The notes under the pieces were generated by a model. The model did not search any database. It was not told the origin of the DNA and saw only the letters and a list, made by a program, of their open reading frames with translations. A program made the translations under genes and the position numbers. 64,000 bases of DNA from Adhaeribacter aquaticus DSM 16391 (GTDB taxonomy: Bacteria; Bacteroidota; Bacteroidia; Cytophagales; Hymenobacteraceae), in assembly GCF_000473365.1 (NCBI RefSeq), contig NZ_KI421517.1, positions 4,352,296-4,416,295 of the forward strand. The letters run 5' to 3'. This document shows positions 33,800 through 45,350 of this stretch, in pieces (within the stretch, counting starts at the first letter, position 1; each line of letters opens with the position of its first letter).

Positions 33800-34429
33800 T
33801 TAGTTTAATTCATAAAAATTATAGGATCTAATTATATCCAAAATTTTAGTAAATGTCTGGGTATCAAAAAATAAAAATAACGGTAGTTCAACCATTTCTT
33901 CAAAATTAGTAAAATGGGTAATTACTGTAAAAATGATCGGCTGAAAAATAGGACTATTCGAAAAGACATTTTTAAGCGAATCGGCTAAAGCTCCTTTTTG
34001 TGGGTGAGACGGCGGAGAACCATATATATCAGCCTTTAAAATATTTGCCAACTGCGTCACAAAAGCGCCGGTAATAATATTGCTGATTTCCAGGAGTAAT
34101 GATTCCTGCATTTCGTTTAGAGCGTTTTCGTAAGGAAGCTCCATATACAAACAAACCTGGGATAGCTTTTCAATATGTTTAGCTGAGAAAACCATTAAAG
34201 TAGTGCCATTAAAGTCGCCTTTAATATCAGATTGAATGATTTCATGGGTTCGTTCAAATTTCTTTAAAATCTCCAATACTTCATTCGCATTGATTAGCTC
34301 CATATCGGGCACCTTAAGTAAAACCCTATCCTTAGAAATGGAGGCAAAAGAATCAGCTGCCCGGGCCAAACCTATATTCAGGATTTCCTTAATAATGTCT
34401 TTCTCTAAATCGCTAATTTGAAGTTCCAT
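33800..34429 (-). CDS. cheC: CheC-like CheY-P phosphatase
   Basis: CheC family proteins dephosphorylate CheY-P and help adaptation. The 209-residue protein has the internal two-fold structure of CheC with both phosphatase motifs of the form [DS]xxxExxN: D11-E15-N18 in DIIKEILN and a second in SLLLEISN near residue 115. It is the last gene of the chemosensory operon, 36 bp after cheA. I prefer the ATG at 34429 to the TTG two codons before. CheC in other phyla often pairs with CheD, but no cheD is in the window. Confidence 0.8.
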   Translation of the reverse strand: MELQISDLEKDIIKEILNIGLARAADSFASISKDRVLLKVPDMELINANEVLEILKKFERTHEIIQSDIKGDFNGTTLMVFSAKHIEKLSQVCLYMELPYENALNEMQESLLLEISNIITGAFVTQLANILKADIYGSPPSHPQKGALADSLKNVFSNSPIFQPIIFTVITHFTNFEEMVELPLFLFFDTQTFTKILDIIRSYNFYELN

Positions 34430-34465
34430 GTACAACTCTTTAAATAAAGGTAATTAGCCCGGTTC

Positions 34466-36118
34466 CTATTTTTTAGTTAAAAAATAACGCGTTATCGCCG
34501 GTACATCTAATACTAAGCAAACCTTACCCGAGCCTAACAGGGTTACCCCTCCGTAAATCTCGATGGCATCAACTGGTTTGTTTAAAGGTTTTACCACGAT
34601 ATCCTGCTGCCTGAAAAGCTTATCTACTATCAGACCTAATTTTCTATTATTATATGTAACAATTATTATATTCTGAACCAACCCTTTTAAACGGCTTTTA
34701 CTTCCCAAATCCATTGTTCCAGGATCACCATTTAAAAATTCGTTCAGGTAAATAACTGTAATGGTTTCATTTTTTATTTCAGCCACCAAAAGGCCGCCAA
34801 TCTCATGCAATTCAGAAGTCTCAAAAGCCACTACCGAATCGGTATGCATGAGCGGAATAGCGTAAAAATTTTCGGCTACTTCAAACAGCAAAGCTCCTTT
34901 AACGGCTATAGAAGTAGGTAAATGCAAGGTAAAGGTGGTTCCTTTGCCTTTTTCCGAATCTACCCGAATCCGACCGCCAATAGAATCAATAGCATTTTTC
35001 ACCACGTCCAGGCCAACCCCGCGCCCAGAAAATTCAGTAATCTCTTTGGCCAATGAAAACCCTGGTTCAAATATGTAAGATAAAGCTTCCGAGTCTCGTA
35101 AATCTTTTACCACGTCTGCCGGTAAAAAACCTTTCTGCACAATACCGCGTCTTACATCTGCTAAGTCTATTCCCTTTCCATCATCCCTTAATTTAATCTG
35201 TACCATCTCCCGGTCGCTCTGGGCGGACAAGGTTATATTACCTACTTTGGGTTTTCCAACTTTTTCGCGTACATCGGCCGGTTCTATACCATGCGAAATG
35301 GCATTCCGCATAATGTGCAATAGTGAATCCGTTATTATCTGGAGGATGTTCCGGTCTATTTGAATATCCTGTCCACTTACTTCCAGGTGAATGTCCTTTT
35401 TCTCAGCAACTGCTATATCCCGGACAATGCGCGGAAATTTATTAAACAAAGAACCTATTGTTACAAGCCGCGCATCCATTACACTGTACTGCAAATCTTC
35501 AGTAATGCGGTAAAGGTGCGCACTTACAGCAGCCAGGTCCGAGTGATTCAGTTCTTTACTAATGGATAGAATCCGGTCCCGGTCTATAATTAACTCCCCC
35601 ACCAGGTTTAATAAATGATCCAGTTTTTTAATCTGGATATAAACCAGGTCCGAGAGGGTAATATTTTTTGCATTGATATATTTAGCTGAACGGGAAAGCT
35701 CTTTTTGTTTATCGCCACCATTTTCCTGTTCATTGGCATTCTCAACTACTAATTCCAGGTTCCGGATAATATTCTCATCCGCCACCTGGTAGCCTTCATT
35801 ATCAACGTTGTTGATTAATTCTCCTAATAAATCAATTCCGTCGAATAAAACTGTAACGGTTTCGTCGGTAAAAGCTAGCTCTTTGTTCCGGATCAGTTCA
35901 AAGGCAGTTTCCAGCTTATGCGATAAATCCGAAATCTGAATATACCCGATAGCTTTGGCATTAGCCTTCATATTGTGCAATAACCGGAATATTTCAGCAA
36001 GCAATCCATCATTATTAGGATCTTTTTCCAGCTCGCTGATATGGCGGTTTAAAGCATCATAGTACTCTAGCGCTTCGGCAATAAATATTTCTTTATATTC
36101 TTGTTCTCTCGATTTCAT
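34466..36118 (-). CDS. cheA: Chemotaxis histidine kinase CheA (short form)
   Basis: CheA autophosphorylates under receptor control and passes phosphate to CheY and CheB. The 550 residues contain a P1 Hpt domain with His48 (LLHNMKANAKAIG), then a P3 dimerisation helix pair near residue 165. The P4 kinase has N box LLHIMRNAISHGIE, G1 DDGKGID, G2 GRGVGLDVV and GKGTTFTLHLP. A CheW-like P5 domain covers about 400-550. A P2 CheY-docking domain is absent, as P1 and P3 are joined by only about 40 residues. The canonical HxxKGSA of P1 is altered to HNMKAN. It sits between cheB (18 bp) and cheC (36 bp). Confidence 0.93.
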   Translation of the reverse strand: MKSREQEYKEIFIAEALEYYDALNRHISELEKDPNNDGLLAEIFRLLHNMKANAKAIGYIQISDLSHKLETAFELIRNKELAFTDETVTVLFDGIDLLGELINNVDNEGYQVADENIIRNLELVVENANEQENGGDKQKELSRSAKYINAKNITLSDLVYIQIKKLDHLLNLVGELIIDRDRILSISKELNHSDLAAVSAHLYRITEDLQYSVMDARLVTIGSLFNKFPRIVRDIAVAEKKDIHLEVSGQDIQIDRNILQIITDSLLHIMRNAISHGIEPADVREKVGKPKVGNITLSAQSDREMVQIKLRDDGKGIDLADVRRGIVQKGFLPADVVKDLRDSEALSYIFEPGFSLAKEITEFSGRGVGLDVVKNAIDSIGGRIRVDSEKGKGTTFTLHLPTSIAVKGALLFEVAENFYAIPLMHTDSVVAFETSELHEIGGLLVAEIKNETITVIYLNEFLNGDPGTMDLGSKSRLKGLVQNIIIVTYNNRKLGLIVDKLFRQQDIVVKPLNKPVDAIEIYGGVTLLGSGKVCLVLDVPAITRYFLTKK

Positions 36119-36136: not shown

Positions 36137-37225
36137 TTAAATCCGATGATATTCTGCAAACCTATTTATATATTCAGGTATTTGCGTTAAACTTATCACT
36201 TTTGAAATATAGCCTTTATCAATCGCAGACTTGGCCATTCCAAAAATGGCAGAAGAAGCTTCATCCTGGGCAACGGTTTCTCCTCCCTTGCCAATGATAG
36301 CTTTAGCTCCGGCGGTACCGTCCTTTCCCATTCCGGTTAAGATGACCCCTAAGGTATTAGCCCCTGCAACTTTTGCTACAGATTTCATTAATAAATCCAC
36401 CGACGGACGATCAAATTCATGAGACGGCTCCAGAGAGAAATCCACTCGTAAATCTGTTTTAATCCCCATATGTCGGTTTACAATCATATTTTTATCTCCT
36501 GGTGCTACAATAATTTTTCCTGCTTCTAACCGTGTACCCGTTTTACCTTCTACCACCTTTAAGGCAGTAAGGCCTTTAAGGCGTTGGGTAAATGTCCTGG
36601 TAAATTTGCCAGGTAAATGCACTGCAATCAAAACGGCGGAGCTTAAATCAACCGACAAATCTTTTATTATGGCTTCCAGAGCCTTTGTTCCGCCAGTAGA
36701 AGCTCCCATTACTACATATGAACTCGGATTCAGAAACCTTGCAGTATTTCTATTTATTACAGAAGCATCCGTTACTCGTTTACCAGTACCTGCCTGATAT
36801 ATTTGTAATTGCTCGTGTTTTATATCCATTACTGCCCGCACTTTCTGGATTATTTCATCCTGAATTTTCCGAAACTGAGGAAATCCAGTATAACTGGAAA
36901 TGTGCACAAAATCGTAAACACCCACTTTCAATGCTTCAAAAATAAAATCCTCCGGCAAGTTTTCTGTTCCTATAATTCCTAAAATAGGCACCTTAAACTC
37001 CTGCTGGATTCTTCGAAAAGTAAACATCCTGCTGTTTTTCGGCAGATGGTAATCTGCAATAACCAAATCAGGAGTATGCTCTTTAATTTTCTGAAGTAAC
37101 TCTTCCCCGTTCTCAGCAGTATCCATAACTTCCAAGTCTACTTCTGTATTTAGTATATCAGAAAGTACCAACCTTGAAAAACTGGAATAATCAGCTATAA
37201 TTATTTTAATCTTCTTTATAACCAA
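36137..37225 (-). CDS. cheB: Chemotaxis protein-glutamate methylesterase CheB
   Basis: CheB demethylates or deamidates receptors when phosphorylated. The 362-residue protein has an N-terminal receiver domain with phospho-acceptor Asp58 (VIADYHLP), although the usual acidic pair near the start is reduced to ADYS. The C-terminal methylesterase has catalytic Ser in MGASTGGT, His in VHLPGKFT and Asp in LTGMGKDGTAG. The start appears to be TTG at 37225: an in-frame TAA is two codons upstream and no ATG occurs before residue 34, inside the receiver fold. No cheR partner is found in the window. Confidence 0.92.
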   Translation of the reverse strand: MVIKKIKIIIADYSSFSRLVLSDILNTEVDLEVMDTAENGEELLQKIKEHTPDLVIADYHLPKNSRMFTFRRIQQEFKVPILGIIGTENLPEDFIFEALKVGVYDFVHISSYTGFPQFRKIQDEIIQKVRAVMDIKHEQLQIYQAGTGKRVTDASVINRNTARFLNPSSYVVMGASTGGTKALEAIIKDLSVDLSSAVLIAVHLPGKFTRTFTQRLKGLTALKVVEGKTGTRLEAGKIIVAPGDKNMIVNRHMGIKTDLRVDFSLEPSHEFDRPSVDLLMKSVAKVAGANTLGVILTGMGKDGTAGAKAIIGKGGETVAQDEASSAIFGMAKSAIDKGYISKVISLTQIPEYINRFAEYHRI

Positions 37226-37279: not shown

Positions 37280-37651
37280 TTAGGCATTTTCCTTTAAAGC
37301 ATTTCCAACCACTTCCAGCACCTTATCTTCAGAAAAAGGTTTTACGATATAAGCCAATGCTCCATGATCCATGGCTTCAGTTACAATAACTTCCTGACCA
37401 ACGGCACTCACAATTATTACCTTCATGTCAGGCTGATCCTTTTTGATTCCTTTCAATACATCCAATCCGGTATTATCTGGTAAAATTACATCCAGGGTAA
37501 CTAAATCAGGATTGGTTTCTTTGGCCATTTGTAAGGCGGTTTGCCCATTAGGCGCCTCTCCTACCACTTCATAACCAGCGTCAGTTAGCATGTTTTTCAA
37601 CATGGTTCGCATGTAAAATGAATCATCTACAATTAATATTCTCTTTTTCAT
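37280..37651 (-). CDS. cheY: Chemotaxis response regulator CheY
   Basis: This is a stand-alone receiver domain of 123 residues, the phosphorylated output of CheA. The acidic pair is Asp9-Asp10 (VDDSFYMR), the phospho-acceptor is Asp54 (LVTLDVILPDN), Ser/Thr is in IIVSAVGQ, and the conserved Lys is in YIVKPF. Its output partner is not obvious, since no flagellar switch genes are in the window. It may act on gliding, pili or another process. Confidence 0.93.
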   Translation of the reverse strand: MKKRILIVDDSFYMRTMLKNMLTDAGYEVVGEAPNGQTALQMAKETNPDLVTLDVILPDNTGLDVLKGIKKDQPDMKVIIVSAVGQEVIVTEAMDHGALAYIVKPFSEDKVLEVVGNALKENA

Positions 37652-37695: not shown

Positions 37696-38214
37696 TTATT
37701 CTTTAAGTTGCTGAACTTCTTCACTGGTTAAAATTTTAAATATATCAAGAACAATAATCAAACGCCCCTCATGCTTTCCTATTCCTTCAATGAAGTTATC
37801 ATTAATGTTGATGTCCTGAATAAAGGCAGGTGCTTTATCTATTCGGGAAACCGGGATAGATAAGGACTGCGGCACATCCCGCACAATCAAACCAATAGTA
37901 TAATCCTTCGCTTCCAGAGCAAGGGTATAAGTTTTTTTAGGTTTCAAAGAATCATATTCCTCTACTACCGGAGTTATTTTAAACCGTTCCTCCAGGTCCA
38001 TAATGGCAATAATATCGCCGCGGATATTAGCAACACCCTTTATAAACGAAGGAGTTTTTGGCATCCGGGTAATTTCAGGCGTAATGGTTACTTCTTTTAC
38101 CTGCTCTATCCGGATACCATATTCTTCGCTGCCCAGTTTAAATACTATTAAATGTATAACCGGTTCCACCACCAAATCCCTTCTGCCTGTAGTAGCTTCT
38201 TCTTCCTTTGCCAT
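37696..38214 (-). CDS. cheW: Chemotaxis coupling protein CheW
   Basis: CheW links the receptor tip to CheA. The 172-residue protein has a short charged N-terminal extension and one CheW domain (about 20-165), with VFKLGSEEYGIRIEQVKEV, MPKTPSFIKGVANIRGDIIA and IIVLDIFKIL. It begins only 5 bases after the receptor stop, so the two are almost certainly co-translated in one operon. Confidence 0.94.
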   Translation of the reverse strand: MAKEEEATTGRRDLVVEPVIHLIVFKLGSEEYGIRIEQVKEVTITPEITRMPKTPSFIKGVANIRGDIIAIMDLEERFKITPVVEEYDSLKPKKTYTLALEAKDYTIGLIVRDVPQSLSIPVSRIDKAPAFIQDININDNFIEGIGKHEGRLIIVLDIFKILTSEEVQQLKE

Positions 38215-38219
38215 GCTGG

Positions 38220-41200
38220 TTATTTATACTTAGCTCCCCCTTTTTTACCCGAATCTTTTTTAGCATCCTGTGCATCAGGTCCCGGCGTTGGTGCCTGTAC
38301 AGAAGGCGGATTAGGAACCTGCGAAAGAGGAATATTTTTAGAGGTACTTCTAGGTTCAGGTACACCTGGCATTCCAGGACGGTTCATTTCCGGAGCCCGA
38401 ACATCCACTGATCTACCAGAAGCCCGATAGTTGGACATGGCAGACATTTTCCGGAATGTTTTACCTTGTGGAATGTAACTTCCGTTTAAAAGTTTAAAGG
38501 CTGAGATTCCTTCCTGTAAGTCTTCTGCAATTTCATTCAACTGCTGGCTGGATGCTGTTAACTCCTGCATCGAACCAGATAATTGTTTGGCAGTACTTGC
38601 AACCTGTTGCGTACCTGATGCTGTTTGTTCAGCAATTGCTACCACTTCTTCTACATACTTAACTACATCTCCAATAGAAGATTTCTGCATTTCAGTAGCA
38701 GTTAAGATATCCTGTGAAGAACGTAAGGTTTCACCACTGGAAGTCGCAATATTCTTAAAGGCTCCGGACGCTTCAAAGGTTGCATTCTTACCTTTTAATA
38801 CCCGACCCTCCATCGTAGAAATTGCAGCTGCGGCAGAAGAAGTATCTTTTTTAACATCTTCTACCAGAGTAGCAATTTCACTTGCCGATTTTCGGGATCC
38901 CTCGGCCAGTTTCCGGATTTCTTCGGCTACTACCGCGAAACCTCTACCGGCTTCGCCCGCACGAGCTGCCTCAATGGCCGCATTCAAGGCCAATAAGTTG
39001 GTTTGTGCTGCGATATCTGTAATTACACCCAATGATTTAGAAATTTCCTGGGAACGGGTACTTAATACTTCAATGGTTTTGGCCGTTAAAGCAGCAGCAG
39101 TAGAAATTTCTTCCATGTTTTTCACCACCTCAGCCACAGTTTTCAAACCTAATTGGGAAGTTTCCTCACCCATAATAGCTGATTTGTTTACCACATCCGC
39201 TTTATTAGCAGTTTCCTTGGTCGCTTTCATGATTTCCTCAATCAGCTTAAAGGCCTGATCCGTTTTTAACGCCTGGTTCTGAGCACCTTCTGCCATTTGT
39301 TGCATAGCTAAGGCCACATCTACGGTTACCCGGCTCATTTCTAAACCTTTAGCAGCCATTTCTTCTGACGAAGACCCAACTACTAAAGAGCTATCATTGA
39401 TTTCTCCTAATAAGGAATTCAGGTTATCAACCGCCAGGTTTAGTGCATTGGCCATCGCTAAAATATCACCAGCGGTGTGTATCTCTACTTTTTGGGTTAA
39501 ATCACCTTCCGAAATAGACCGCACCACTCTGGATACTTCCAATACTGGCGTTACAATAGACTCTAACAGGTCATTCAGGGTATCAACCAGTTCCTTCCAG
39601 CTTCCGCCTACTCCATGTACTGTGGCACGCTCTGTTAATTTTCCTTCTACCCCTGCTACTCTTGCTACCCGGCTTACTTCACCTGCTAAACGGTTCAGGT
39701 CATCCACCATCCGGTTAATAGTATCTGCCAGGTCGGCTACCTCGCCTTTTGCTTCCAGCGTTAACTTCTGCGTTAAGTCGCCTTTTGATACAGCCGTTAC
39801 AACTTTTACAATTCCGCGAACCTGGGTTGTCAGGTTACCAGCCATTATATTTACGTTATCAGACAAGTCTTTCCAGGTACCGGCTACACCCTGTACATTG
39901 GCCTGACCGCCCAATTTACCTTCGGTACCCACCTCACGGGCCACGCGCGTTACTTCCGAAGTAAAGGAGTTCAGTAAATCCACCATGGTATTAATGGTGT
40001 TCTTCAGTTCCAGAATTTCACCGCGGGCATCAATCGTAATTTTCTTGGAGAAATCTCCAATTGCCACCGCAGTGGTTACTTCGGCAATATTACGTACCTG
40101 ACCCGTTAAATTACCAGCCATCATATTTACATTGTCGGTCAGGTCTTTCCAAACGCCACCCACACCTGTTACTTCCGCTTGGCCGCCTAGTTTACCTTCG
40201 GTACCTACTTCACGTGCCACCCGGGTTACCTCACCAGCAAAAGCGTTCAGCTGATCTACCATGGTATTTATGGTATTCTTCAGCTCTAATATTTCCCCTT
40301 TTACATCAATGGTGATTTTTTTCGATAAATCTCCGGTAGCTACCGCAGTGGTTACATCTGCAATATTCCGTACCTGCGTGGTAAGGTTACCCGCCATCAG
40401 GTTTACGTTATCGGTCAAGTCTTTCCAAACTCCGCCTATTCCTTTAACATCAGCCTGACCGCCTAGCTTACCTTCGGAACCTACTTCACGCGCTACCCGG
40501 GTTACCTCAGAAGCAAAAGCGTTTAGTTGGTCCACCATGGTATTGATGGTGTTCTTCAGTTCCAGAATTTCACCACGGGCATCAATTGTAATTTTTTTAG
40601 ATAAATTACCGGTTGCCACTGCCGTGGTTACCTCAGCAATATTACGTACCTGGCCCGTTAAGTTACCAGCCATGTAGTTTACATTATCGGTTAGGTCTTT
40701 CCAAACCCCGCCTACTCCTTTTACATCGGCCTGACCACCTAGCTTACCTTCAGTACCCACTTCCAATGCTACCCGGGTTACCTCCCCGGCAAATATATTC
40801 AGAGAATCCACCATCCGGTTAATATTCTCTTTCAGATCAAGAATCTCGCCGCGGGCATCAATGGTAATTTTCTTAGATAAATCCCCGTTAGCAACCGCAG
40901 TAGTTACCTCAGCAATATTACGCACCTGACCGGTCAGGTTAGAGGCCATAATATTTACATTGTCGGTTAACTCCTTCCAGGTGCCCCGAACTTTGGGCAC
41001 ATTGGCCTGGCCGCCCAGTTTACCTTCAGTACCTACTTCACGAGCCACCCGGGTTACCTCATCCCCGAAAATGTTCAGGGAATCCACCATCTGGTTCAGG
41101 TTTTCTTTCAGATCTAAGAATTCACCGCGTACTTCCACGGTGATTTTCTGGGTTAAATCGCCCCGCGCTACAGCCGTAGCTACTTTGGCAATGTCCCTGA

Positions 41201-43724
41201 TTTGTGAGGTCAGGTTGCTGGTCATGGTATTAACGTTATCGGTTAATTCCTTCCAGGTACCTCCTACATTTGGTACAATTGCCTGGCCGCCCAGTTTACC
41301 TTCGGTACCTACTTCACGAGCCACCCGGGTTACCTCATCCCCGAAGATATTGAGGTAATCCACCATTTGGTTAATATTATCTTTCAGCTCCAGAATTTCG
41401 CCCCGGGCATCAATGGTAATTTTCTTCGATAAGTCGCCATTGGCTACTGCCGTGGCTACTTTAGCAATATCACGCACCTGACCGGTTAAATTACCAGCCA
41501 TTATGTTTACGTTATCAGTTAGGTCTTTCCAGGTACCAGATACGCCCTGTACTTCGGCCTGGCCTCCCAGTTTACCTTCGGTACCTACTTCCCTTGCTAC
41601 CCGGGTTACTTCCCCGGCAAAGGCGTTCAGCTGATCAACCATCGTATTAATGGTATTTTTCAGTTCTGATATCTCACCACGGGCATCAATGGTAATTTTC
41701 TTACCTAAATCGCCGGTGGCAATAGCAGTGGTTACTTCGGCAATATTCCGTACCTGGCCCGTTAAATTACCGGCCATCATATTTACATTGTCGGTCAGAT
41801 CTTTCCATACACCGCCAACACCTCTTACTTCGGCCTGGCCGCCCAGTTTGCCTTCAGAACCTACTTCCCGCGCCACCCGGGTTACTTCAGAAGCAAAAGA
41901 GCTTAACTGGTCAACCATGGTATTTACAGTATTTTTTACTTCCAGAATCTCCCCACGTACATCAGCGGTAATCTTCTTAGACAAGTCTCCGGTAGCAATG
42001 GCTGTGGTTACCTCGGCAATAGAACGCACCTGCGTGGTAAGGTTACCGGCCATAATATTTACATTATCGGTCAGGTCCTTCCAAACTCCGGCCACATCCG
42101 GCACATTGGCCTGGCCACCCAAAATACCTTCGGTTCCTACTTCGCGCGCTACCCGGGTCACCTCCCCGGCAAATACATTTAACCGGTCCACCATGGCATT
42201 CATGATGTTTTTCAGATCCGCCAATTCGCCTTTTACCTCAACCGTAATTTTTTGATTTAAATCTCCACGGGCCACAGCAGTAGCTACATTGGCAATATCC
42301 CGTACCTGAGAGGTAAGGTTAGAAGCCATGTAGTTTACATTATCGGTCAATTCTTTCCAGGTTCCTTCCACACGCGGCACATTGGCTTGTCCGCCAAGTT
42401 TACCTTCGGTTCCTACTTCACGTGCCACGCGGGTTACCTCGTCCGAGAAGATATTCAGGGAATCCACCATCTGGTTCAGAATATCCTTTAACTCGGCAAT
42501 CTCACCCCGTACGTTAACGGTAATCTTCTGCGTTAAATCGCCTTTCGCTACAGCCGCCGCCACATTTGCAATATCACGCATTTGTGAGGTCAGATTGCTG
42601 GCCATGGTATTTACATTGTCGGTAAGTTCTTTCCAAACGCCACCAACGTTAGGCACCTTTGCCTGGCCACCCAATTTACCTTCGGTACCTACTTCCCGCG
42701 CTACCCGGGTTACTTCATCCCCAAAGATGTTCAGCGAGTCCACCATGAAATTGATGTTCTCTTTTAATTGCAGGAATTCTCCTTTTACATCTACCGTTAC
42801 CTTTTGCGTCAGGTTACCCTGCGCAACTGCGGTGGATACTTTGGCAATATCCCTTACCTGAGCAGTAAGGTTACCAGCCATTATATTTACATTGTCTGTT
42901 AATTCTTTCCAAACCCCGGCTACGTTCGGTACAGAAGCTTGCCCACCCAGCTTTCCTTCTGAACCTACTTCCAGCGCTACCCGGGTTACTTCCCCGGCAA
43001 ATAAGTTTAGGTTATCAATGGTTCGGTTAATGGTCTCGGCCATTACTTTAAAGTCGCCCGATACCGGAATCTGGAATGTTTCATCCAGGTTTCCGCGGGA
43101 TATATTTTTAAGTACTTTACCTACCTCCAATACCGGAACAGCAATCGAATCAACCAGACCATTGATATTATTAATCATGTCTTTCCAGAAACCGGAGGCA
43201 TTCTCAGCCGATGCCCGCGCTTTCAGGTTTCCTTCTACTCCGGCAACTTTAGAAATACGCGACACTTCGCCCCCTACGCCCCCTATCATCTCCACCATGG
43301 AGTTATAAGCTTCGGCGATATCAGCAAAAATATCATTGTTCTGCTTTGTTAACCGGACGGACACATCACCCTTTTTGAAAGCATCCAGGGCGTATAATAC
43401 CCGGTTCAGCTGATCATTAATATAAGGGTTATCTAATGACGCACTTTTGGTAGTATCAGGAGCAGCTGGTGCTGATACCGGTTTTTCTTCTTTTCTTTTT
43501 TCAGAAACAGATTTAGCTGAACCTGACTCCCCCACTGGCAAGGCACCAACCTTTTTGCCATTTTTCTTTGGCAGATCAGCCGGCTCCGGAGTAGCCTCTG
43601 CTGCCGGTGTGGTTACCGGTTCTGGCACCACTTTCCCTTCTGCTGGTTGCTCAGGCGGATTGTTATTTTCCGCTTGACCAATCAGTTTGTCTTTGTTCAA
43701 CTTCATGTTTTTTCCTAAAGCCAT
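38220..43724 (-). CDS. Giant soluble chemoreceptor with 14 tandem double-HAMP repeats
   Basis: This 1834-residue methyl-accepting-type receptor has no membrane segment and no recognisable ligand domain. Residues 1-105 are charged and disordered, starting [17 protein letters not shown], with a Pro/Glu/Ala-rich linker and Lys clusters. A half HAMP unit precedes residues 153-1440, which are 14 units of exactly 92 residues; the middle twelve begin EVTRVA(R/L)EVG(T/S)EG. Each unit reads as two HAMP motifs (WKELTDNVN and GDLTQKITV types). The chemoreceptor signalling domain (about 1441-1770) has the hairpin tip [20 protein letters not shown]. The C-terminus ends without a CheR-binding pentapeptide. 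The repeats resemble fungal Nik1/Os-1 kinases, but the output here is a chemoreceptor. Confidence 0.92.
39405..43268 (-). repeat. Fourteen 276-bp tandem coding repeats (poly-HAMP region)
   Basis: Fourteen consecutive units of 276 bp encode residues 153-1440 of the receptor. The twelve between 39681 and 42992 are close in protein sequence; the outer two (39405-39680 and 42993-43268) are diverged. No insertion or deletion breaks the period. Adjacent copies differ at many third codon positions, so the array is old rather than a recent expansion. Confidence 0.93.
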
Positions 43725-43830
43725 AACTTGCGCTCTATATTAAAATATACTGGGTGGATCTATTAATTAAACCCCGAAGGATCTGTTTTAACTCTAATGT
43801 ATAACAATAAAAAACGAAAAATTCCGGTGC

Positions 43831-44577
43831 TTATTTTACCAGAAATTCCTCGGCTAAGGCCATATAATCTTTGGCTCCGTTGGATGCCGGATCATAATCG
43901 ATTACACTTTTCCCGAATGATGGCGCTTCAGCTAACTTTACATTTTGCCGGACACGCGAAGAGAAAATGTATTCATCCACATTTTCCTGCAAGTATTCTT
44001 CCACTTCTAAACTTAATTTCCGGCGCTTATCATACATAACTACCACAATGCCTTTTACCCGTAATTTTGGGTTGAACGCTTTCCGAACCTGAGCGACAGT
44101 GTTTAATATTTGATTAAGACCTTGTAAGGTTAAAACTTCCATTTGTAAAGGAATCAGCACTTCCTGAGAAGCCGCCAGGGCATTAACCGTAAGTATAGAA
44201 AGTGAAGGCGGACAATCGATCAGAATATAATCAAATCCTTTGGCATCAGCCAAAATATTTTTTAAAAAGCTTTCCCGCTTTTCCTGCGTTACTAATGAAA
44301 TTTCAATATCCACTAGTTCATTGGATCCGGGGGCAATACTAAGGTTTCCTTGATGAACCAGAATATCAGCTAATTGTTTTGTTCCGGTAAAAACATCTGC
44401 TAACGTAACAGCAGGTTCTGTTACGCCCAAGGAATAAGATAAATTAGCCTGTGGATCTAAATCGACCAGCAATATCTTTTTGCCTAACTTACTTAATGCA
44501 CTTCCTAAATTTATTGTGGTAGTAGTTTTACCTGTGCCTCCTTTTTGATTTATCACAGATATTATGGTTGCTGCCAT
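43831..44577 (-). CDS. ParA/Soj-family ATPase, probable positioning factor for the chemoreceptor array
   Basis: ParA ATPases dimerise on ATP, bind DNA non-specifically and position plasmids, chromosomes or protein clusters. The 248-residue protein has the deviant Walker A KGGTGKTTTT (residues 12-21), VDLDPQANLSYSLG, DYILIDCPPSLSILT (Walker B) and the C-terminal DNA-contact region with DKRRKLSLEVEEYL. No parB follows. Instead the giant receptor gene lies 106 bp downstream on the same strand. That order resembles ppfA next to the cytoplasmic receptor gene tlpT in Rhodobacter sphaeroides. The chromosomal Soj role is the main alternative; lack of parB argues against it. Confidence 0.88.
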   Translation of the reverse strand: MAATIISVINQKGGTGKTTTTINLGSALSKLGKKILLVDLDPQANLSYSLGVTEPAVTLADVFTGTKQLADILVHQGNLSIAPGSNELVDIEISLVTQEKRESFLKNILADAKGFDYILIDCPPSLSILTVNALAASQEVLIPLQMEVLTLQGLNQILNTVAQVRKAFNPKLRVKGIVVVMYDKRRKLSLEVEEYLQENVDEYIFSSRVRQNVKLAEAPSFGKSVIDYDPASNGAKDYMALAEEFLVK

Positions 44578-44870: not shown

Positions 44871-45350
44871 TTAAAAATTAACTTTTAACTTGAAATCAGA
44901 AACCTCTATTTCAAACCAATCATGAGTTAAAAAAGTAAAATAATTTACCCCGGCAGTTGGCACATACAGGTTATTATCATTATTTAATTTACTGCTTACC
45001 TCCGAAACAGCCGGATTATGTGCCACCACTACAACCGTATTCCAGTGGGGAGCCAACTGAGCAAGAAACCGCAAAAGAGTGGCTGTTGCACAATTATACA
45101 GCTCTTTTACCGAATAGATCTGATGCAATGGTAAACCAAGACCAGAAGCTAAAATGCGAGCTGTTTCTGTTGTTCTTACCGCAGCACTACTAACAACCGC
45201 ATCAACAGGTAAACCAAAATTAGCCATCCATTGGGCTGCTGTCTGAGCCTCAGAAATACCCTTCGCAGAAATATTTCTATTAGAATCTGTTTGTCCTGTT
45301 ATGGCCAGTAATGCGTCAGCATGGCGGCAAAGAAAGAGGTTTTTAGGCAT
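44871..45350 (-). CDS. SixA-like histidine phosphatase
   Basis: The 159-residue protein belongs to the histidine phosphatase (phosphoglycerate mutase-like) superfamily. It has the RHG-type motif as CRHADA near residue 8, the second Arg in VVSSAAVRTTETA and the catalytic His in VVAHNPAVSE. This short RHA form matches SixA, which removes phosphate from His of Hpt domains, although many members act on small molecules. About 290 bp of AT-rich sequence with no visible gene separates it from parA. A link to the nearby CheA Hpt domain is possible but only inference from proximity. Confidence 0.82.
   Translation of the reverse strand: MPKNLFLCRHADALLAITGQTDSNRNISAKGISEAQTAAQWMANFGLPVDAVVSSAAVRTTETARILASGLGLPLHQIYSVKELYNCATATLLRFLAQLAPHWNTVVVVAHNPAVSEVSSKLNNDNNLYVPTAGVNYFTFLTHDWFEIEVSDFKLKVNF

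Follow-up and report, generated by a model that had tools for sequence, protein, structure and literature searches.

A candidate ParA-based system for placing a cytoplasmic chemosensory array in Adhaeribacter and related Cytophagales

An orphan parA next to a chemoreceptor gene

Why does a gene for a ParA-type ATPase, without a parB, stand directly upstream of the gene for a soluble chemoreceptor, and which part of the receptor could the ATPase recognize? The locus that raises this question lies in Adhaeribacter. The window analyzed here is the whole 64-kb stretch C1:4352296-4416295 of the 5.17 Mb genome, which is assembled in 4 contigs. On its minus strand, the genes sixA-like, parA, receptor, cheW, cheY, cheB, cheA, and cheC-like follow one another in this order, down to position 33800:

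44871-45350, minus strand: SixA-like phosphohistidine phosphatase (PF00300), directly upstream of parA
43831-44577, minus strand: orphan ParA-type ATPase, 248 aa (Pfam AAA_31/CbiA; AAA_31 E=7.6e-54), first of the gene pair
38220-43724, minus strand: soluble poly-HAMP chemoreceptor, 1834 aa (HAMP/HAMP_2 and MCPsignal profile matches)
43677-43724, minus strand: ParB-like tag at the receptor N-terminus, 16 residues, almost unchanged across the 15 family receptors that were read
43410-43676, minus strand: variable linker from the tag to the first HAMP, containing KKNGKK; its length and charge vary
37696-38214, minus strand: CheW (PF01584, E=1.1e-29)
37280-37651, minus strand: CheY (PF00072)
36137-37225, minus strand: CheB (PF01339 and receiver)
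34466-36118, minus strand: CheA (Hpt, H-kinase_dim, HATPase_c, and CheW domains)
33800-34435, minus strand: CheC-like phosphatase (PF04509, E=2.2e-12)

The preliminary description of this locus had placed a complete ParA without ParB directly upstream of the receptor gene on the same strand, and this was borne out. The two genes are separated by 106 bp. The ParA carries a deviant Walker A motif, NQKGGTGKTT, with the signature Lys, as well as the equivalents of Asp58, Asp60, and Asn64, as expected for the ParA ATPase superfamily; its solved homologues are M. xanthus ParA (8RAY) and T. thermophilus Soj. No ParB was found beside it. The single ParB_N match of the genome immediately adjoins another ParA (C1:4461199), 65 kb from the window ParA. 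A search for parS-like sites allowing up to three mismatches gave 0 matches in the 64-kb window, and the one perfect parS of the genome is at C1:1233029. The orphan state extends to other genomes: none of 68 loci yielded a ParB homologue, while the same search recovered one in 10 of 10 chromosomal control loci. A tag-linked ParA is present in 67 of the 68 (61 distinct), and four of the 68 encode a PAS-like protein instead of chemotaxis proteins.

A plasmid origin of the window ParA was rejected, as its identity to 111 plasmid records was below 60% throughout (best listed, 46%). A third Flammeovirga ParA and a plasmid ParA of Adhaeribacter swui have different partners (MAKK.FSGGL.SLL) and belong to another system. 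Other Cytophagales ParAs (L158, L159, L163, L166, and L169) likewise pair with small proteins that start with another short partner motif, MAKK.FSGGL.SLL or MKSKKDFTGGLSSLL.

The receptor accounts for the only MCPsignal match in a profile search of the genome. It consists of the tag, the linker, and the HAMP repeats (13 HAMP and 14 HAMP_2 stretches, possibly overlapping), with one MCPsignal domain; no membrane span was seen on inspection by eye. Among close relatives, complete receptors (L041-L056 and that of the window) range from 1231 to 1911 aa. The variation apparently comes from the number of HAMP repeats, which may set the thickness of the array.

Conservation was followed in 292 Cytophagales genomes, 58 of which belong to the same family (Hymenobacteraceae). 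Each of the 58 family genomes has exactly one MCP match, and 16 of them, the Adhaeribacter genome included, have a window-type ParA (73-100% identity). The receptor gene lies directly behind parA in all 16, though in one (G137) the contig ends inside the receptor. In the family regions that were fetched, parA, receptor, cheW, cheY, cheB, cheA, and cheC lie between topA/sixA and a formiminoglutamase-like gene, cheB being missed by blast in some loci. The sixA-like gene is upstream of parA in 15 parA-holding family loci; for its product, the phosphohistidine of CheA might be a substrate. The preliminary description had looked to conservation of the parA-receptor pair across Cytophagales. The pair does recur in Rufibacter, Pontibacter, Botryobacter, and Flammeovirga, in Cyclobacteriaceae, and in other families of the order, but 42 of the 58 family genomes have no close copy of the ParA.

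The kind of system is already known, since positioning by PpfA/TlpT and ppfA-like genes in che operons have been reported. PpfA of R. sphaeroides is reported to position cytoplasmic arrays via the N-terminus of TlpT, which is the proposed ATPase activator (PMC3964821, PMC7993993), and ppfA-like genes are reported in che operons of 77 of 206 species (PMC2829493). The Adhaeribacter locus resembles PpfA/TlpT, as described there, in having a ParA homologue without ParB in a che operon, a soluble receptor gene adjoining parA, and a receptor N-terminus that, judging from co-occurrence and motif form, is a candidate ParA partner. It differs in its Bacteroidota host, in the poly-HAMP receptor, which is the only MCP of the genome, in the defined ParB-like tag (TlpT again taken by its description), and in the existence of ParA-less sister lineages.

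A ParB-like tag on receptors and other proteins

Read by script, 15 of the 16 family receptors encoded beside parA start with MALGKN[LM]KL[NS]K[DE]KLI; the sixteenth (L053) was missed by the script's pattern, and its tag agrees by reading. Only about the first 15 residues of the receptor N-terminus are conserved. They are followed by 77-114 variable residues with a net charge between -16 and +4 (15 family receptors); in the window receptor, the net charge is -3 for the linker and +3 for the tag. This bears on the earlier suggestion that a Lys-rich, disordered N-terminal tail stimulates the ParA. The start given for it and the KKNGKK are present, but the basic residues after position 16 are not conserved. 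A generic Lys-rich tail was therefore ruled out as the ParA contact by the lack of conservation past residue 16, the rest of the region being variable and mostly neutral to acidic. Nor does the window receptor have a basic N-terminal tail of the FrzCD type, given its linker charge and the family range.

In its general form, MALG[KDNE]N[LIMV]K...LI, the tag is a variant of the ParB box ALGKGLSALIP. In distant families, MALG[DNEK]N[LIVM]K is in most cases followed by a basic stretch and LIP, LLS, or MIP. In the same search, ordinary ParAs were accompanied by true ParB-like proteins with sequences such as MALGKGLSALIQ and MERRALGKGLSALIP. Relative to the ParB box, Asn replaces the second Gly, and two to four residues are added ahead of the LI pair. 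It speaks against the likeness that the residue matching the activating Arg13 of ParB is Lys in only part of the set and Asp, Asn, Glu, or Gly in others. The ParB-box form of the tag, together with the co-occurrence with ParA, makes the receptor N-terminus very probably a ParB-like partner, as had been proposed; the part of it that is likely to matter is the tag.

The DNA pattern MALG[KNDE]N[hydrophobic]K had 38 matches in 36 of the 292 genomes of the order, and the reversed control had 1. On the same strand and less than 600 bp behind a ParA match lay 35 of the 38. In a draw of 392 genomes from the phylum, the tag was found in the Adhaeribacter genome and in one more, in the latter with Phe for Leu. 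A chance start pattern was thus ruled out by the single control match and the single other match in the phylum draw. One match (G078:C8) lies within another open frame but not in its reading frame and probably arose by chance, and a second match in the Adhaeribacter genome, obtained with a looser pattern (L081), runs into a stop within two codons and is not a gene start. Variant tags outside the pattern were found on reading the loci of G163, G017, and G074, and looser ones in G039 and in G066, with MASGKEIKRDRLIP. The tagged genomes total 41. In 36 of them parA is adjacent, and in five (G017, G039, G064, G066, and G074) it is unlinked; G064, for example, has a tagged receptor with no ParA match nearby. 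The partner ParAs in the five unlinked genomes are presumed.

Outside the family, MCP-bearing genomes number 50 (G006, G046, G094, G095, G126, G132, G133, and G157 were left out, and in G134 the sequence breaks off where the receptor starts). In 19 others of these genomes the receptors showed no tag, and none of the ParA loci taken from the same 19, which did not include every lower-scoring ParA, has the pocket signature of tag-linked ParAs (see below). One genome (G238) has a partial tag, MALGKN (MALGKNSQKETLAEG), without a window-type ParA among the ParAs found. Fulvivirga marina (L234:7992-12949) has the parA-receptor pair with a receptor that lacks the tag; by eye, this receptor starts with a globin-like stretch.

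The tag is also found on other proteins. Behind parA, the tagged protein is a CheW in G214, Reichenbachiella faecimaris, Ekhidna, and a Cytophagaceae MAG (loci L057, L199, L201, and L207), and the extra tag match in G214 belongs to another CheW, whose gene lies in this row some 3 kb upstream of parA. In four f21 genomes without an MCP match (L069-L072), a tagged PAS-like protein of 215-216 aa is encoded behind parA. Two Elusimicrobiota MAGs (L203:5771-6859 and L197:1133-3202) have a ParA 56-57% identical and a tagged protein of about 100 aa that starts with M[AP][MI]GKNVNL.DR[IV]IK. In L203 the gene for this protein follows parA directly; in L197 it is about 1 kb farther away, and two open frames intervene. 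The small proteins had no meaningful Pfam or NCBIfam match; their C-terminal halves are ribbon-helix-helix-like, with weak Arc-like profile matches (E=0.009 and 0.27), and they look like DNA binders. An integrase-like frame was observed upstream in L203. Judged from this distribution, the tag goes with the ParA rather than with the type of cargo.

Residue differences in the ParA partner pocket

For M. xanthus, PMC12462528 assigns ParB residues L11, L15, L18, and I19 to a hydrophobic groove at the ParA dimer interface. It proposes ParA residues Y81, E82, D110, and E117 as contacts of R13 and describes Y81 and E117 as invariant. We compared these positions, in M. xanthus numbering, in 174 ParA matches, of which 161 are distinct (62 tag-linked, 52 ParB-linked, 42 other, and 5 unlinked). 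All 52 ParB-linked ParAs have Tyr81, Gly113, and Glu117. Of the 62 tag-linked ParAs, none has Tyr81, none has Gly113 (Asp in 57), and 2 have Glu117 (Ser in 52). Many rows are closely related, and the counts do not represent independent events. The Tyr and Glu pocket positions are mostly Ala and Ser in tag-linked ParAs. The window ParA has Ala and Ser there, and its Gly113 is also replaced. Of the five unlinked ParAs, one (G074) keeps Tyr81 and none keeps Glu117. Positions 116, 150, 152, 155, and 192 are mostly hydrophobic in tag-linked ParAs.

In a ParA tree of 110 rows, from which a text filter dropped Flammeovirga and other rows and in which labels mix inside the tag-linked side, a branch (99/98) separates the ParB-linked ParAs from all 49 tag-linked rows used, which group with 4 unlinked and 3 other rows. 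An AlphaFold2 prediction of a natural ParA and tag as a single chain (no dimer) gave a mean pLDDT of 86.7 for ParA, with the tag undocked at a pLDDT of about 45-55.

The system shares with ParABS the ParA fold, the hydrophobic partner groove, and a partner peptide of the pattern LG-x-x-L...LI. Unlike ParABS, it has no ParB or parS near the window ParA and a sensory protein as its candidate partner; the window ParA is without Tyr81, Gly113, and Glu117, and in the tag Asn takes the place of Gly and the 2-4 extra residues are present.

The tagged CheW proteins call to mind a different role, in which the ParA would be a polar or assembly factor that anchors or nucleates arrays at the pole, with no partitioning over the nucleoid. 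In Reichenbachiella, Ekhidna, and G214, a ParA-like ATPase is accompanied by a CheW with an N-terminal partner region, as in Vibrio ParC/ParP and Halothiobacillus ParC-CheW; ParP is described with an array-integrating domain (PMC5706961), and a CheW is named as the ParC partner in Halothiobacillus (PMC10241942). Unlike in ParC/ParP, the candidate partner in the window is the receptor, and the window CheW has no tag. Moreover, position 238, which in M. xanthus ParA is needed for DNA binding (PMC12462528), is basic (Lys or Arg) in all 62 tag-linked ParAs, which fits nucleoid binding. We consider a polar or assembly role unlikely.

Relatives without the ParA and a proposed mechanism

The 42 family genomes without a close copy of the window ParA belong to two genera, the larger of which is presumably Hymenobacter, and each has one MCP. 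Because the receptor is present there without it, the window-type ParA is dispensable in some lineages. In eight ParA-less loci whose surroundings were read, the receptor gene adjoins topA and is accompanied by the same che genes, and neither parA nor sixA was found. For seven of these eight, a genome-wide ParA search to E 1e-35 gave best matches that are 39-40% identical. The seemingly intact gene row without parA and sixA in these eight loci would agree with a ParA unconnected with array placement, such as an expression regulator or a passenger of the operon, the conserved receptor N-terminus then serving something else. But within the family the tag is absent where the ParA is absent, it accompanies the ParA on cargo proteins that are unrelated to each other, and differences in the ParA groove go along with the tag; we regard such a ParA as very improbable.

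Receptor N-termini with and without ParA were compared up to the first HAMP. With ParA, 41 of 43 loci were read (L051 and L053 were not; 37 distinct), and without ParA, 27 of 28 (L288 was not). The tag is present in 41 of 41 receptors with ParA versus 0 of 27 ParA-less family receptors, while a basic patch, [TAS]R[KR][KRS]G, within 60 residues before the first HAMP is present in 0 of 41 versus 26 of 27, a contrast that rests on one pair of lineages and may be a single event. The patch is mostly TRKRG or TRKKG (L073-L080 and L283-L302).

These patches bring in FrzCD of M. xanthus, a cytoplasmic receptor which, according to PMC5716589, binds DNA itself by a basic N-terminal tail. The likeness to the Adhaeribacter receptor would lie in placement on the nucleoid, here proposed, and the ParA-less relatives may resemble FrzCD more closely: since FrzCD binds DNA in this way, direct DNA contact through the basic patch is, by analogy, a plausible substitute for the ParA in them. 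Could the receptor array itself be tethered to DNA by a basic receptor tail, with ParA in a secondary role? The patch may be a fallback of the ParA-less lineages. In ParA-bearing family members, however, linkers are mostly neutral to acidic, and the tag is sequence-specific, has the form of a ParB box, and is also carried by CheW and a PAS-like protein. Direct tethering with a secondary ParA is quite unlikely.

An array-partitioning system of the PpfA/TlpT type with a re-keyed ParA-tag pair is the best explanation of the locus, with a probability that we put at about 0.8. Placement of the internal sensory array on the chromosome is probably the work of a ParA motor. In this mechanism, a dedicated ParA would position the cytoplasmic chemosensory array and share it out at division. 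The nucleoid would carry ATP-bound ParA dimers, and the receptor tag would bind the groove at the dimer interface in the manner of the ParB N-terminal box and trigger ATP hydrolysis by ParA. An array displaying many tags at once would move along the nucleoid and spread over it. Insulation from the ParA-ParB pair of the same cell may have come about with the hydrophobic groove kept, the pocket for the ParB arginine rebuilt, and the tag altered. Two outcomes that would have told against the preliminary description were not observed: the receptor gene adjoins parA in every family genome with a window-type ParA, and the 68 loci yielded no ParB homologue. Weighing against the mechanism are the family genomes that have the receptor without this ParA, the varied residue at the Arg13 position, the five unlinked genomes with the Tyr81 of G074, the untagged pair of Fulvivirga marina, and the partial tag of G238. 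The gene row, the orphan ParA, the tag, its co-occurrence with the ParA, and the pocket change can be read from the sequences; the binding of tag to ParA, activation, array movement, and insulation are what we infer from them.

A wider reading is held more tentatively, at somewhat less than even odds. One ParA clade might read a portable 15-residue tag on any cargo, be it a receptor, a CheW, a PAS-like protein, or a small ribbon-helix-helix-like protein, insulated from the chromosomal ParA-ParB by the rebuilt pocket; where the ParA was dropped, the receptor would have lost the tag and gained a basic patch that ties it to DNA. In a partial search of the open literature, we found no prior report of the shared tag, of the tag on differing cargo, or of the paired pocket difference.

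How several ParA systems in one cell avoid each other is described as an open question (PMC10241942 and PMC12462528). The paired differences in ATPase pocket and short peptide, with sister lineages that have neither, make partner specificity testable with peptides, and the tag may serve as a ready label by which a protein of choice is moved on the nucleoid. For the Cytophagales, the locus provides a concrete model of how cells with a single cytoplasmic chemosensory array may pass it on to their daughters.
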